Below, one piece after another: positions 24,437 through 29,285 of a stretch of DNA of 64,000 nucleotides. The stretch is from Salipiger abyssi. Its GTDB lineage: Bacteria; Pseudomonadota; Alphaproteobacteria; Rhodobacterales; Rhodobacteraceae. The notes beneath the pieces were generated by a model. It was not told where the DNA came from. It made no database searches and saw only the letters and a program-made list of their open reading frames with translations. Location of the stretch: contig NZ_JAEKIS010000001.1 of assembly GCF_017311415.1 (NCBI RefSeq), forward strand, positions 496,001-560,000, written 5' to 3'. The position numbers were made by a program, and so were the translations under genes. Each line of letters begins with the position of its first letter. Positions within the stretch are counted from its first letter, which is position 1.

Positions 24437-27400
24437 TCAGAGCCCCGCCGTCGGTACGGTTTCCTGCGGCGCGGCGGTGAAACTCAGAGCCTCGATCGAC
24501 ACAAGCGTCACCGCGCCCTCCGGCCCGGTGGCGACCAGCCTGTCGCCCTCGCGCGCAAAGCGGTAGTCCTCGCGCGCACCGGGCAGAACCGCCCGGTCCT
24601 GCCCCGGTCCGCCATGCAGCCGGTCGCCGCCACCGCCGGTCAACACATCGTCGCCGGCGCCACCCAGCAGGATATCCTCCTCCGGCGTGCCTTCCAGCGT
24701 ATCGCCGCCGCTTCCGCCGCGCCGCAGCACGCCATTGGCAAAACCCGCCGCGTCGCGCGCCTCCCAACCCGAGGGCGCGGTGGCGTTGTAGGTCATCAGC
24801 ATGTCCCAGCGCGGGTTGGAATCGTCGAGATGCCGCAGCGCGCCCCAGCTGCCCCATTTGCTCGCCGGGGCGACATCGACAAAGGCGTTGAAGAGCGTGC
24901 CGCCGGCATCGACCCAGCCGGTCAGCAGCTCTTCGTAAAGCTTGGCCATCTCCGGCGTGTAGTTGAAATAACGGAAGAACCCGGTGAGCCGCTCGTCCTC
25001 GACCCGGGCGGCCTGCGCGGTGACATGGGTGCCGCCCTCATACATCACCAGCCGCAGCCCCGCCGCCTCCGCCGCCGCGGCGTGATAAGGCAGCACCTCG
25101 CCGATCAGCTCCTTGAGCGAGCCCTCCTGAAGCGCCATCGCGACCGGCGCCACCGCCGCCTCGTAGCGCCGTTCCCTGACGAATTCGCGCAGAGCCACCC
25201 GTTGCAGCCCCTGCGCCTCGCCCTCGGCGCGGGCCTGATCCTCGGCACGGGAGAGCCAGCCGTCGATCTGCGGCGCCATCTCTTCGCCGCCGAGCTCATA
25301 GCCGAAATAGCCGGCGACCGCGTAGGCATCGAAATCCTCCTGCGGGAAATGGCCGAGCCGGAGATAGGCCAGCGGCGCCATGAGGATGTTTTCCTCCAGC
25401 CCCGGCCAGCCGGTATGGGTGGCAACGACGCGGACCAGCCTGTCTTGCGTCTGATCACCGAACACGTCGGACCAGATCCGCATGGTCTGGGCGGCGCGCA
25501 GCCCGTAGAACTGCATCCAGCCGGCCTCCGACCGGCCCCAGAGCGCATCCGCCTGCGCCTCGGCCCAGCCCGCCTGCGGAAAGATGTGGTTCCAGACCTC
25601 GTTGGAATATTCCACATAGGCCCTGAGGCGCGGGTCGAGCCCGTCGCGCACGGCCTCGGCAAAGCGGCGGATATAGTCGTCATCGGCCATATGCGGCATG
25701 TTGAACCACGGATCGGCGCCGATCTCGTTGGCGAGCGCGATCATCACCTCCAGCGGCACGCCCCAGGCGGTCCAGGTGTAATCGCTCATCCGGGGCCGGT
25801 CGTCCCAGCTTTGCACCGGCGAGCCGTTTGTCAGCATCCAGTCCATGAAGCGCAGGCTGCGCAGATCCCGGATGCGCTCGATCCAGAGCGGATTGAAAAG
25901 CGCGCCCAGCTCGTAGAGATCGCGCTGATCCTCGCGGATCACCCGGATATTGCGGATCGGATCGTCCGGATCGGTGGCGGAGATCGAGATGCCCACGGCG
26001 CCCTCGCCGGGGCTGTAGGCAAATTCCGCCTCGCCCTCGCCATGGCGCACCCGCCGCGCGCGCCCGGTCAGATCGAGATCGCCCTTGCCGTCCCAGAGCA
26101 CCAGATAGGTGCCGCGCAGGTAATCGGCATCCTCGGGCTGGTCGGTGAGCAGCAGCGCCTCGAGCCGCTCGACCCGCTCGGGGATGCGCAGCGGCCAGCC
26201 GTTCTCGTCGAGCACACCCTCGGCGCGCAGTTCCTCGGCGCTGACGCCGCCCCATTGGCCGGGCAGGTGGCCCGTCCATTCGCGCGCGGTCTTCATCACG
26301 TCGATGAAGGGCTGTTGGGTCGACCAGTCGCTGATGCCGTTCAGTCCCATGCCGAGCGCCGGCAGCGCCTGAACCGGCGCCCCGGGCTCGGGCAGCGCCA
26401 CCTGCCCGCGCGGCGGCAGCGGTGTGTCTGGGGCCACTTCGGCGGTCTGCACCGGGGCGGGGGCGGCGGCCTCCTGAAAGATGTCCGACTTAGAGATTTC
26501 TTCCCAGATCAGGGAGGAGAGATTGGGATAGGCCGCCGCCACCTCCGGGTTCAGCGTGTCGGGCGGGTCGTAACTTTCGGGCGGCGGCGCCTCGTAGATC
26601 GCCGCATAGGTGATCATCGCGGCGAGGAAATAGAGCGTAGGCGTGCCATGCGGCGAGGAATCCACATAAAGCGCCTCGACCGGCAGCTCTGCCAGCGGCC
26701 CGCCCTCGCCAAGCATCTGCGACAGCAGCCGCGCCACCGGGATCAGCCGCAGATCGGCCCCGGGGCTGGCCTCGCGCAGATCGCCGAGCAGGGTCTCGTA
26801 CCAGTCGTGATACTCGCCGCGATTGAAATCGTGATAGCGCCGCAATGCGCGGTTCGACGGCGGAAAGCGGTTCGAGACCCCCGCCATGTCGGCCCAGCCC
26901 TCGTAGAGATAGACCGGCGTGCCCGGCGCGCGGCTCTGCACCCAGTCGACCAGTGTCCGGGTGGCGCCCAGAGGGCTCTCGCCGGTGGGGTTCTCTCCCT
27001 CATAGGGGGCTTCGGGCGGCTGGTACTGGATGAAATTCGCCGGCGTGATCAGAACCGCGTCGATCCCGGCATCGCCGAAGGCGCCGCGCCCGGGATCCCA
27101 GGCGCTCGTCACCCCGGGGAAGGACCAGTTGGGCCGGGGCGGCAGGCTTTCGGCGAATCCGCGCAGAAAGCCCCACTGCCCGTCGAGCGCAAGGCGCCGC
27201 CCATCGGCGCGCGCCATCTCGGCCATCCAGTGCGGCACATTGGAATGTGGCTCTTCGCCCAGATAATGCACCAGGCTGTTGCCGAAGACATAGAGGCTGG
27301 CCTCGTCCCGCCCCTGCGCCACCGCCATCAGCGGCACCACGATTGCCAGACACGCGGCGCGCAATACCCGTCCAAACAAACCCTGCTCTCCCCTTGTCAC
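24437..27400 (-). CDS. Large secreted SGNH-like / glycosidase-like protein with C-terminal RTX repeats
   Basis: 987 aa from a GTG at 27400, chosen because it yields a good Sec signal peptide (TRGEQGLFGRVLRAACLAIV, cleavage near AVA-Q); the frame extends to an ATG at 27511. The N-terminal part begins LYVFGNSLVHYLGEEPHSN, with a later DSSPHGTPTLYFLAA, resembling SGNH blocks I and V. After a Pro-rich linker comes a TIM-barrel-like region (FMDWMLTNGSP, DPWFNMPHMADDDYIRRFAE, VEYSNEVWN) seen in secreted carbohydrate-active proteins. Residues about 895-935 hold four RTX-type GGxGxD repeats. A Sec signal with RTX repeats is an unusual pair, since RTX proteins usually leave by type I secretion. Substrate unknown, probably a polysaccharide. 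Confidence 0.65.
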   Translation of the reverse strand: MTRGEQGLFGRVLRAACLAIVVPLMAVAQGRDEASLYVFGNSLVHYLGEEPHSNVPHWMAEMARADGRRLALDGQWGFLRGFAESLPPRPNWSFPGVTSAWDPGRGAFGDAGIDAVLITPANFIQYQPPEAPYEGENPTGESPLGATRTLVDWVQSRAPGTPVYLYEGWADMAGVSNRFPPSNRALRRYHDFNRGEYHDWYETLLGDLREASPGADLRLIPVARLLSQMLGEGGPLAELPVEALYVDSSPHGTPTLYFLAAMITYAAIYEAPPPESYDPPDTLNPEVAAAYPNLSSLIWEEISKSDIFQEAAAPAPVQTAEVAPDTPLPPRGQVALPEPGAPVQALPALGMGLNGISDWSTQQPFIDVMKTAREWTGHLPGQWGGVSAEELRAEGVLDENGWPLRIPERVERLEALLLTDQPEDADYLRGTYLVLWDGKGDLDLTGRARRVRHGEGEAEFAYSPGEGAVGISISATDPDDPIRNIRVIREDQRDLYELGALFNPLWIERIRDLRSLRFMDWMLTNGSPVQSWDDRPRMSDYTWTAWGVPLEVMIALANEIGADPWFNMPHMADDDYIRRFAEAVRDGLDPRLRAYVEYSNEVWNHIFPQAGWAEAQADALWGRSEAGWMQFYGLRAAQTMRIWSDVFGDQTQDRLVRVVATHTGWPGLEENILMAPLAYLRLGHFPQEDFDAYAVAGYFGYELGGEEMAPQIDGWLSRAEDQARAEGEAQGLQRVALREFVRERRYEAAVAPVAMALQEGSLKELIGEVLPYHAAAAEAAGLRLVMYEGGTHVTAQAARVEDERLTGFFRYFNYTPEMAKLYEELLTGWVDAGGTLFNAFVDVAPASKWGSWGALRHLDDSNPRWDMLMTYNATAPSGWEARDAAGFANGVLRRGGSGGDTLEGTPEEDILLGGAGDDVLTGGGGDRLHGGPGQDRAVLPGAREDYRFAREGDRLVATGPEGAVTLVSIEALSFTAAPQETVPTAGL

Positions 27401-27504
27401 ATGCCCCGCGTTCAATATGGACCAGCCGCCCCGGCGCTCAAGCCCCGTCTCGGGCGCGCTGCGCCGCAGCGTCACTTTCCGCGGGAATTCGCGCATTTTG
27501 CGGG

Positions 27505-27532
27505 TTTTCATTTACCTTTTTGCGCGTATAGT
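27505..27532 (+). promoter_or_regulatory. Promoter candidate for the leuA leader
   Basis: TTTTCA at 27505-27510 and TATAGT at 27527-27532, 16 bp apart, in a locally AT-rich stretch. A start 7-8 nt after the -10 box would fall at the ATG of the leader ORF (27540), so the leader transcript could be leaderless. Confidence 0.5.
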
Positions 27533-27539
27533 CCGCCGC

Positions 27540-27629
27540 ATGATGACCCGTGGCCATATCGCTTTTGCTGCCCGCGCCCTTGGCGCGCTGCTTGCGCTTG
27601 GCCTGTCTCTTCTCCTAACCCGCCTCTGA
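27540..27629 (+). CDS. Leucine-rich leader peptide upstream of leuA
   Basis: 29 codons beginning MMTRGHIAFAARA and ending ALGALLALGLSLLLTRL; nine of the last sixteen codons are leucine, including three in a row (CTT CTC CTA) with the rare CTA. The ORF starts directly at the predicted transcription start and ends 88 nt before leuA. Its 3' end takes part in one of two mutually exclusive stems (see 27623-27682). This is the organisation of an amino-acid biosynthetic leader peptide such as enterobacterial leuL. When charged tRNA-Leu is scarce, a ribosome would stall in the Leu run and alter downstream pairing. Confidence 0.75.
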   Translation: MMTRGHIAFAARALGALLALGLSLLLTRL

Positions 27630-27682
27630 GCGCGCACACCCGGCGCGACCGCTCAGAGGAGGACCGTTTCGCGCCGGCGAAA
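27623..27682 (+). promoter_or_regulatory. Attenuator-like alternative stems upstream of leuA
   Basis: Stem A: CCTCTGAGCG (27623-27632, overlapping the leader stop codon) pairs perfectly with CGCTCAGAGG (27650-27659). Stem B: CCGGCGCGA (27640-27648) pairs perfectly with TCGCGCCGG (27669-27677). The arms interleave, so A and B cannot coexist as simple hairpins. A third hairpin, TTTCGC-4 nt-GCGAAA (27667-27682), competes with B. No U run follows, so classical intrinsic termination is not evident; Rho-dependent or translational control remains possible. Confidence 0.65.
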
Positions 27683-27716
27683 CCTCAGGACGAAGACCTT
27701 ACAGAGATTCAGAGAC

Positions 27717-29285
27717 ATGACCGACCAAGCCCAAGACCGCGTGTATATTTTCGACACGACGCTTCGCGACGGCGAACAATCGCCCGGCGCCACCATGACC
27801 CATGACGAAAAGCTCGAGATCGCCGAGCTGCTCGAGGATATGGGCGTCGACATCATCGAGGCGGGCTTCCCCATCGCCTCCGAGGGTGACTTCAAGGCGG
27901 TGAAAGATATCGCCGAGCGCAGCAAGGAGACGGTGATCTGCGGCCTCGCCCGCGCCCAGATCCCCGATATCGACCGCTGCTGGGAGGCGGTGAAACACGC
28001 GCCGCGCCCGCGCATCCACACCTTTATCGGCACCTCGCCGCTTCACCGCGCTATTCCCAACCTCACCATGGACGAGATGGCCGACCGCATCCACGAGACG
28101 GTGACCCACGCCCGCAACCTCTGCGACAATGTGCAATGGTCGCCGATGGATGCGACGCGGACCGAGTGGGATTACCTCTGCCGCGTGGTCGAGATCGCCA
28201 TCAAGGCCGGCGCCACCACGATCAACATCCCCGACACGGTGGGCTATACCGCGCCGCGCGAAAGCGCCGACCTCATCAAGCGGCTGATCGAAGCGGTGCC
28301 CGGCGCCGACGAGATCATCTTTGCGACACACTGCCACAACGACCTCGGCATGGCGACGGCGAACGCGCTGGCCGCCGTCGAGGGCGGCGCGCGGCAGATC
28401 GAATGCACGATCAACGGGCTCGGCGAGCGGGCGGGCAACACCGCGCTCGAAGAGGTCGTCATGGCGCTCAAGACGCGCGGCGACATCATGCCGTTCTTTA
28501 CCGAGATCGACACGAAAAAGATCATGCATATCTCGCGCCGTGTCTCGACGGTGTCGGGCTTCCCGGTGCAGTTCAACAAGGCCATCGTCGGCAAGAACGC
28601 CTTTGCGCATGAGAGCGGCATCCACCAGGACGGCATGCTCAAGAACGCCGAAACCTTCGAGATCATGCGCCCCGAGGATGTCGGCCTCTCGGCCACCAAC
28701 CTCGTGATGGGCAAGCATTCGGGCCGCGCCGCGCTGCGCGCGAAGCTCAAGGATCTCGGCGTCGATGTGGGCGACAACCAGCTCAAGGACATCTTCGTGC
28801 GGTTCAAGGAGCTCGCCGACCGCAAGAAGGAGGTCTACGACGAGGACATCCTCGCGCTGGTCACCGCCACCATGGCGGGCGAGCAGGCAAACCATCTCGA
28901 AATCGTCTCGCTCAAGGTGATCTGCGGCACCGGCGGCCCCGCCGAGGCGGTCCTGGAGATGGAAGTTGGCGGCCAGGAGATGAGCGCCGACGAATTCGGC
29001 GACGGCCCGGTGGACGCGACCTTCAAGGCGGTGCGCAAGCTGTATCCCAACAAGGCGCGGCTCCAGCTTTATCAGGTGAACGCGGTGACCGAGGGCACCG
29101 ACGCGCAGGCCACGGTGTCGGTGCGTCTGGAAGAGGACGGCAAGATCGCCACCGGCCAGTCGGCGGATACCGACACGGTGGTCGCTTCGGCCCGCGCCTA
29201 TGTGAATGCGCTCAACCGCCTGCATGTGCGCCGCAGCAAGACCGGCGGCGACGTGAAGGAAATCAGCTACAAGGATGTCGGCTGA
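27717..29285 (+). CDS. leuA: LeuA, 2-isopropylmalate synthase
   Basis: 522 aa, normal length. The catalytic domain shows VYIFDTTLRDGEQSPGATMT, the metal-binding FATHCHNDLGMATANALAAV, and NGLGERAGNTALEEVVMALK; the link region is followed by the C-terminal LeuA allosteric domain (about 395-522), which binds leucine for feedback inhibition. It condenses acetyl-CoA with 2-oxoisovalerate, the first committed step to leucine. The ATG at 27717 has only a weak AGAGA ahead of it. The gene stands alone behind a leucine-rich leader, which suggests leucine-dependent control in addition to feedback. Confidence 0.97.
   Translation: MTDQAQDRVYIFDTTLRDGEQSPGATMTHDEKLEIAELLEDMGVDIIEAGFPIASEGDFKAVKDIAERSKETVICGLARAQIPDIDRCWEAVKHAPRPRIHTFIGTSPLHRAIPNLTMDEMADRIHETVTHARNLCDNVQWSPMDATRTEWDYLCRVVEIAIKAGATTINIPDTVGYTAPRESADLIKRLIEAVPGADEIIFATHCHNDLGMATANALAAVEGGARQIECTINGLGERAGNTALEEVVMALKTRGDIMPFFTEIDTKKIMHISRRVSTVSGFPVQFNKAIVGKNAFAHESGIHQDGMLKNAETFEIMRPEDVGLSATNLVMGKHSGRAALRAKLKDLGVDVGDNQLKDIFVRFKELADRKKEVYDEDILALVTATMAGEQANHLEIVSLKVICGTGGPAEAVLEMEVGGQEMSADEFGDGPVDATFKAVRKLYPNKARLQLYQVNAVTEGTDAQATVSVRLEEDGKIATGQSADTDTVVASARAYVNALNRLHVRRSKTGGDVKEISYKDVG

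Follow-up and report, generated by a model that had tools for sequence, protein, structure and literature searches.

In erm/cat translational attenuators, a ribosome stalled on the leader frees a hidden ribosome-binding site, the stall being drug-induced, and enterobacterial leuL is an attenuator in which a Leu-rich leader peptide precedes the leucine genes. The closest described kind to the element considered here is the LEU element, where a Leu leader peptide is located before actinobacterial leuA, a pseudoknot is present, and a base stem pairs the run of Leu codons with the leuA Shine–Dalgarno box (Seliverstov et al., 2005, PMC1262725). According to the accessible sections of that paper, mutations in the leuA leader of S. 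coelicolor have some effect, though not the one predicted by classical attenuation, and protein binding, not leader translation as the signal, is proposed for the actinobacterial element. The leuA leader of Streptomyces lividans, with the peptide MRFGLLLLSCRGEGL, is reported to be leaderless and, as far as the available part of the source goes, to have no typical terminator (PMC8079986). Similarly, the available text on rhizobial trpL describes a leaderless leader ORF at the first base of the transcript, with Trp as the signal and an attenuator sRNA (PMC10117765), and that on uORFC-8-2 describes a cysteine leader before cysS of Rhodobacterales (PMC8632094).

We analyzed a 64,000-nt stretch of the Salipiger abyssi contig NZ_JAEKIS010000001.1 (hereinafter, the window; all coordinates are window positions) with a Leu-rich leader upstream of leuA, and compared it with the corresponding regions of related genomes. 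By architecture, the alphaproteobacterial element appears to be a variant of the LEU-element kind: as far as the latter is described in the accessible sections, both have a Leu leader, interleaved helices and a base stem between Leu codons and the Shine–Dalgarno region. The helix sequences differ (stem A is CCTCTGAGCG:CGCTCAGAGG in the alphaproteobacterial form and CCGCGGCGAGGG:CCCTCCCCGCGG in Streptomyces) and, unlike in the LEU element, the leader stop codon lies inside stem A, and the partner of the base stem is often shifted away from the start codon. A previous sequence-only reading of the window had named leuL and rhizobial trpL as parallels, and in this respect the LEU element takes their place. 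Compared to leuL, the alphaproteobacterial form has no U-tract terminator, is probably leaderless and has no Rfam match; with trpL, as far as its source describes it, it has in common a leader ORF that is predicted to be leaderless, but the amino acid is leucine and no terminator was found. The likeness to uORFC-8-2, as outlined in the available text, is one of codons and gene, both being amino-acid-codon leaders ahead of a gene for the same amino acid. With erm/cat the proposed logic would be alike, codon starvation being the stall signal in the alphaproteobacterial form.

The leuA leader in the window

The features of the region are listed in Table 1. The leader ORF has 29 codons followed by TGA, and nine of its 16 C-terminal residues (LGALLALGLSLLLTRL) are Leu, one of them encoded by CTA. 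The predicted promoter is composed of a –35 box TTTTCA (27505–27510) and a –10 box TATAGT (27527–27532) separated by a 16-nt spacer, with 7 nt between the –10 box and the leader ATG, and transcription is expected to start at this ATG or next to it. Two promoter-like sites were found in the 27300–27800 region, compared to 0.1 on average in shuffled sequences. The first ATG of a divergent ORF (24437–27511 on the minus strand, 1024 aa, with one stretch of Pfam RTX calcium-binding repeats) lies inside the leuA promoter region, so its true start is probably further in.

Table 1. Features of the leuA upstream region of Salipiger abyssi, in window positions
Feature	Position	Strand	Sequence or basis
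Predicted promoter	27505..27532	+	sequence scan; –10-to-ATG spacing kept in relatives
Leader ORF, predicted leaderless	27540..27629	+	peptide MMTRGHIAFAARALGALLALGLSLLLTRL*; family members keep the frame and the Leu codons
Regulatory codon run CTG TCT CTT CTC CTA (L S L L L)	27603..27617	+	sequence
Base stem E, 5' strand (Leu codons)	27604..27614	+	minimum-energy fold and family-wide test
Stem A, 5' strand, includes leader stop TGA	27623..27632	+	CCTCTGAGCG; covariation
Stem B, 5' strand	27640..27648	+	CCGGCGCGA; covariation
Stem A, 3' strand (A')	27650..27659	+	CGCTCAGAGG; covariation
Local hairpin GTTTCGC/GCGAAAC, competes with B'	27666..27683	+	by eye, not kept throughout the genus
Stem B, 3' strand (B'), interleaved with A	27669..27677	+	TCGCGCCGG; covariation
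Base stem E, 3' strand (leuA ribosome-binding region to A of the start codon)	27704..27717	+	fold
leuA, 2-isopropylmalate synthase	27717..29285	+	Pfam PF00682 HMGL-like, PF08502 LeuA_dimer

In the window, stem A pairs in 10/10 and stem B in 9/9 positions, in the order A–B–A'–B'. The Leu-rich ORF, the promoter and the two perfect interleaved stems had all been reported in the sequence-only reading, and we find them at the same places; its claim that the stems are mutually exclusive is not forced by the data. The loops of 7, 1 and 9 nt permit an H-type pseudoknot, so that exclusivity is just one reading, and stems A and B could form together. The folding method used cannot represent a pseudoknot; with it, the 27600–27740 RNA has a fold of –51.7 kcal/mol (z –3.56), and one of 200 shuffled sequences is as stable.

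Two further candidates in this region were rejected. The local hairpin is no conserved part of the element, as, judged by eye, it is absent in Phaeobacter, and GAGGAGG at A' is located some 55 nt ahead of the leuA ATG, too far to be taken for its ribosome-binding site. No second genomic copy was found: the exact pattern matches once in the genome, and the next best hits of the genome model search have E-values of 0.18, for this site read on the other strand, and 0.32.

Conservation of the element in Rhodobacteraceae

The leuA gene was searched for in 20 genomes of the genus and in 149 genomes of the family, 147 of which have it. Upstream DNA was examined for 142 of these 147 (the remaining five are outside the counts), as well as for more genus members and one Phaeobacter inhibens plasmid. 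In 129 of the 142 family genomes, a Leu-rich ORF that terminates within stem A is located directly 5' of leuA, and a contiguous stem B of at least 6 bp is found near stem A in 118 of them.

The fate of the 13 genomes counted as missing was followed locus by locus. The element sits further upstream in L034, L042, L044 and L045; the TGAGCG..CGCTC core is retained in L094, L126 and L148; a cupin-like ORF precedes leuA in L086, L107 and L134, where the fetched stretch is too short; just an A'-like stretch, seen by eye, is present at the edge of the fetched DNA in L101; and no element was found within the stretch fetched upstream of leuA in L121 and L164. The model placed the element higher up in L034, L042, L044, L045, L179, L181 and L324, the last two coming from one genome. 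Overall, 148 of 161 loci were kept, as 11 had no model match and two matches (L086 and L164) were judged spurious. Stem A forms all ten pairs in 137 of these 148 loci, nine in six and eight in five. The leader stop is TAA in one locus (L168) and TAG in another (L161), and A' still pairs 10/10 in both.

Covariation was assessed on an unfitted alignment of 121 leaders, in which one row, L069, comes from the wrong strand. Stems A and B are paired in 89.9% of cells (86.3 ± 0.3 in shuffled alignments), 12 of the 19 pairs show changes on both sides, and all 500 shuffles scored worse on each of five measures; when the stems are slid, 29–54% of cells pair. The outer pairs of stem B are not universal, being unpaired in 43–70 of the 121 rows. 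The sequence conservation of stem A and of the core of stem B is very strong.

The frame of the leader was examined by choosing, in 129 loci, a –10-like box with an ATG 5–9 nt downstream, blind to frame. This choice yields a start in 116 of the 129 loci, and 115 of these 116 are in frame and open up to the conserved leader stop, compared to about one third expected by chance; hence, the leader encodes a peptide and is probably leaderless. An SD-like sequence is observed ahead of the leader ATG in five of 146 loci. The spacing between the –10 box and the ATG is conserved among relatives; the distance of 10 nt, seen in 24 loci, probably reflects ATGATG starts.

Leu is found at codon –4 from the stop in 146 of 146 loci and dominates at codons –5, –6 and –7 (117, 139 and 98 of 146, respectively), and from codon –6 to codon –4 most of the variation falls on third positions, with Leu kept. 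Thus, both signs that the sequence-only reading had proposed to look for in relatives, Leu-codon conservation and compensatory changes in the stems, are observed. Moreover, CTA accounts for 64 of 157 Leu codons at positions –8 to –4 of 44 leaders, and for eight of 1,764 in 48 leuA bodies, 20 of which belong to the window's own genus. The preference for CTA and CTT at codon –4 may partly be explained by pairing with UUAGGA/UAAGGA and so does not speak for stalling alone.

Pairing of the leucine codons with the ribosome-binding region

In many leaders, Leu codons face their complement shortly before the leuA start (e.g., UCCUUAGC : GCUAAGGA). In the minimum-energy fold of the window, positions 27604–27614 pair with 27704–27707 and 27711–27717 (stem E in Table 1), with an alternative pairing of 27608–27616 with 27687–27696. 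The sequence-only reading, right about stems A and B, had missed this third helix.

Stem E was tested by swapping partners: the duplex energy of each leader with its own downstream sequence was compared to that with downstream sequences of other loci (131 loci, 200 swaps). The own partners yield –12.78 kcal/mol, compared to –9.97 ± 0.20 for the swapped ones, the best swap reaching –10.72, and shuffled leaders yield –8.90 ± 0.24 kcal/mol. When a segment located higher up in the leader (i-48 to i-30) is combined with its own downstream sequence, the energy is –10.73 kcal/mol, somewhat better than in the swaps, so part of the signal may be due to composition. Outside the family (28 loci, 300 swaps), the values are –14.01 for own and –11.80 ± 0.57 kcal/mol for swapped partners, with the best swap at –13.3.

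The mean contiguous pairing in stem E is 6.3 for own partners and 5.1–5.5 over 20 swaps. At least six contiguous pairs are formed in 91 of 138 loci, and fewer in 47, including the window's genus. In 107 of 123 loci, the 3' strand of stem E either overlaps the start codon or stops fewer than 20 nt short of it; in 40 of the 123, this distance is 15–19 nt. Given the short contiguous pairings in 47 loci and the shifted partners in 40, direct covering of the Shine–Dalgarno box is not universal. Close genus relatives, duplicates and loci with long spacers were left out of the sets of 138 (contiguous pairing), 131 (swaps) and 124 (opening cost, below) loci.

In five loci (L034, L042, L044, L179, L181), leuA is preceded by a cupin ORF, and the element is located before the cupin start. 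The first gene here is an ORF of 118 residues, assigned to Pfam cupin in L042, and the leader pairs with the sequence just ahead of its ATG, the partner being a UUAGGA or CUAAGGA motif in L042, L044, L179 and L181. Thus, the first gene, be it leuA or the cupin gene, seems to determine where the E partner lies, these cupin pairings standing without a swap control. A cupin-like ORF before leuA, of 118 residues where whole, is present in a minority of the family genomes, among them L086, L107 and L134, and this arrangement suggests a functional link to leucine synthesis.

The effect of a ribosome on the leader was modeled as the predicted cost of opening positions –20 to +3 of leuA with the ribosome footprint masked, in 124 loci. 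On average, the cost is 5.83 kcal/mol for the free RNA, 5.71 with a mask further upstream, about 4.4 with a mask on the Leu run, and 4.31 with a ribosome at the leader stop. A stall mask at codon –4 gains more than 1 kcal in 67 of the 124 loci and loses more than 1 kcal in 19. In the window, the cost is 5.77 for the free, 3.5–4.4 for the stalled and 6.1 kcal/mol for the stop-bound state. As, on average, a stop-bound ribosome and a stalled one open the site to a similar extent in the model, discrimination would have to rely on the dwell time.

The gap between the leader stop and leuA, with a median of 81 nt in 124 loci, is untranslated. Read-through of the leader stop into leuA was considered and rejected, as the distances fall in all three frames (50, 43 and 31 of the 124 loci). 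In the window the leader and leuA share one frame, which is inconsistent in relatives.

Possible modes of regulation and occurrence outside the family

We consider it probable, based on comparative and modeling data, that the region controls leuA in cis in response to leucine, being a leader built like the LEU element and acting as a stall-released translational attenuator. When leucyl-tRNA is plentiful, ribosomes would clear the leader fast, stem E and the A/B fold (possibly a pseudoknot) would re-form between ribosomes, and initiation on leuA would be hindered. When leucyl-tRNA is short, the ribosome would dwell on the Leu run and occupy the 5' strand of stem E, so that the leuA ribosome-binding site would be open and leuA translated; poor translation of leuA may additionally expose the message to Rho or decay. 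What favours translational control is stem E, in which the Leu codons pair with the ribosome-binding region of leuA. As the release, we favour a long stay of the ribosome on the Leu run, since masking either the run or the stop lowers the opening cost on average. Leucine shortage would, on this view, act on leuA through the leader. Of the interpretation given in the sequence-only reading, the comparison bears out a Leu leader, probably leaderless and placed in cis before leuA, and leaves aside the switching between exclusive stems.

The same reading had doubted simple intrinsic termination, having seen no U run after any stem, and rightly so. There is none in the window, and U-rich tracts fit for a terminator were found after the stems in none of the 148 loci, the maximum of 6 T in 8 nt being reached in two. 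The sole terminator-like site in the scan (27483–27509, with 0.4 expected) is located upstream of the leader, and none was found between the leader and leuA in the window. An intrinsic terminator is therefore rejected.

The main rival, which we hold to be rather unlikely, is Rho-linked attenuation, where the stretch after the leader stop would be open to Rho, and a ribosome stalled on the Leu codons would let A/B form and hide the Rho site. The absence of an intrinsic terminator and the untranslated gap before leuA agree with it, as would the geometry, since early stalls on the Leu run should leave stem A free and a stop-bound ribosome should cover it. However, Rho-linked attenuation explains neither the co-variation of the Leu codons with the ribosome-binding region nor the position of the E partner ahead of the cupin gene where the latter comes first. 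It is less probable still that a regulatory protein reads the pseudoknot, leader translation not being the signal. Such an improbable arrangement would fit the very strong conservation of stem A and the B core and the argument from the S. coelicolor mutants, as given in the accessible sections of the LEU-element paper (PMC1262725), but it is opposed by the open frame in all but one of the starts chosen blind to frame, by the retention of Leu with freer third positions, and by the enrichment in CTA, though part of the latter may serve stem E. Finally, classical attenuation with an intrinsic terminator, as in enterobacterial leuL, is scarcely credible: a Leu-rich leader and alternative stems before leuA would suit it, but U tracts are lacking in the family, as is a terminator-like site between leader and leuA in the window, and a search of Rfam 15 with the leader gave nothing at the gathering threshold and two chance-level matches at a relaxed one.

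Beyond Rhodobacteraceae, a covariance model of the leader was run on 289 genomes of Alphaproteobacteria under strict filters, and it matched 44 of them, 40 outside the family. Among the 29 matched loci that were read, leuA is directly downstream in 27 and separated by a cupin ORF in two. Moreover, 31 of 67 leuA upstream regions of the class are positive by a strict pattern that misses real-looking cases, and 49 by a loose one, of which eight or nine were judged spurious by eye. Within Alphaproteobacteria, the predicted element thus occurs widely, though not in every genome. Outside the family, as in L334 and L346, a codon run CTT CGA CTT A (L R L) is often seen, together with a stem A of the CCCCTGAACG..GTTCAGGGG type. 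One class genome, L328, has an in-frame TGA within leuA.

In Actinobacteria, 72 of 79 loci with the Streptomyces pattern have the order A–B–A'–B'–E'; this count replaces that of a free topology search in Streptomyces (78/78), which proved unspecific. All 80 actinobacterial loci searched with the alphaproteobacterial model R1 give a match at the leader, with E < 0.01 in 68 and E-values up to 0.12 in the others, but these loci had been fetched by a pattern overlapping the model, so the hits are biased; for this reason we file the element by architecture and leave descent open. Rfam 15 gave no match in three actinobacterial loci. No description of the alphaproteobacterial form was found in the open-licence literature searched; a survey of 2010 (Mol Biol 44:128) may mention it.

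The LEU element was presented as an enigma in 2005, with a leader peptide, a pseudoknot, no terminator, and mutants fitting no simple model, as far as the accessible sections tell (PMC1262725). A possible, if doubtful, generalization is one ancient device common to Alphaproteobacteria and Actinobacteria through descent or transfer: a leaderless leader with Leu codons doubling as an antisense of the ribosome-binding site, which a pseudoknot would close and a leucine-starved ribosome would open, and which would control the first leucine gene. Such a device would explain the unsettled mechanism of the LEU element. With more than 100 sequences, strict conservation of Leu and frame, and a base stem directed at the first gene, the alphaproteobacterial form makes the stall-release model directly testable. 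If the model is true, the control of leucine synthesis in a large bacterial class would gain a candidate mechanism.
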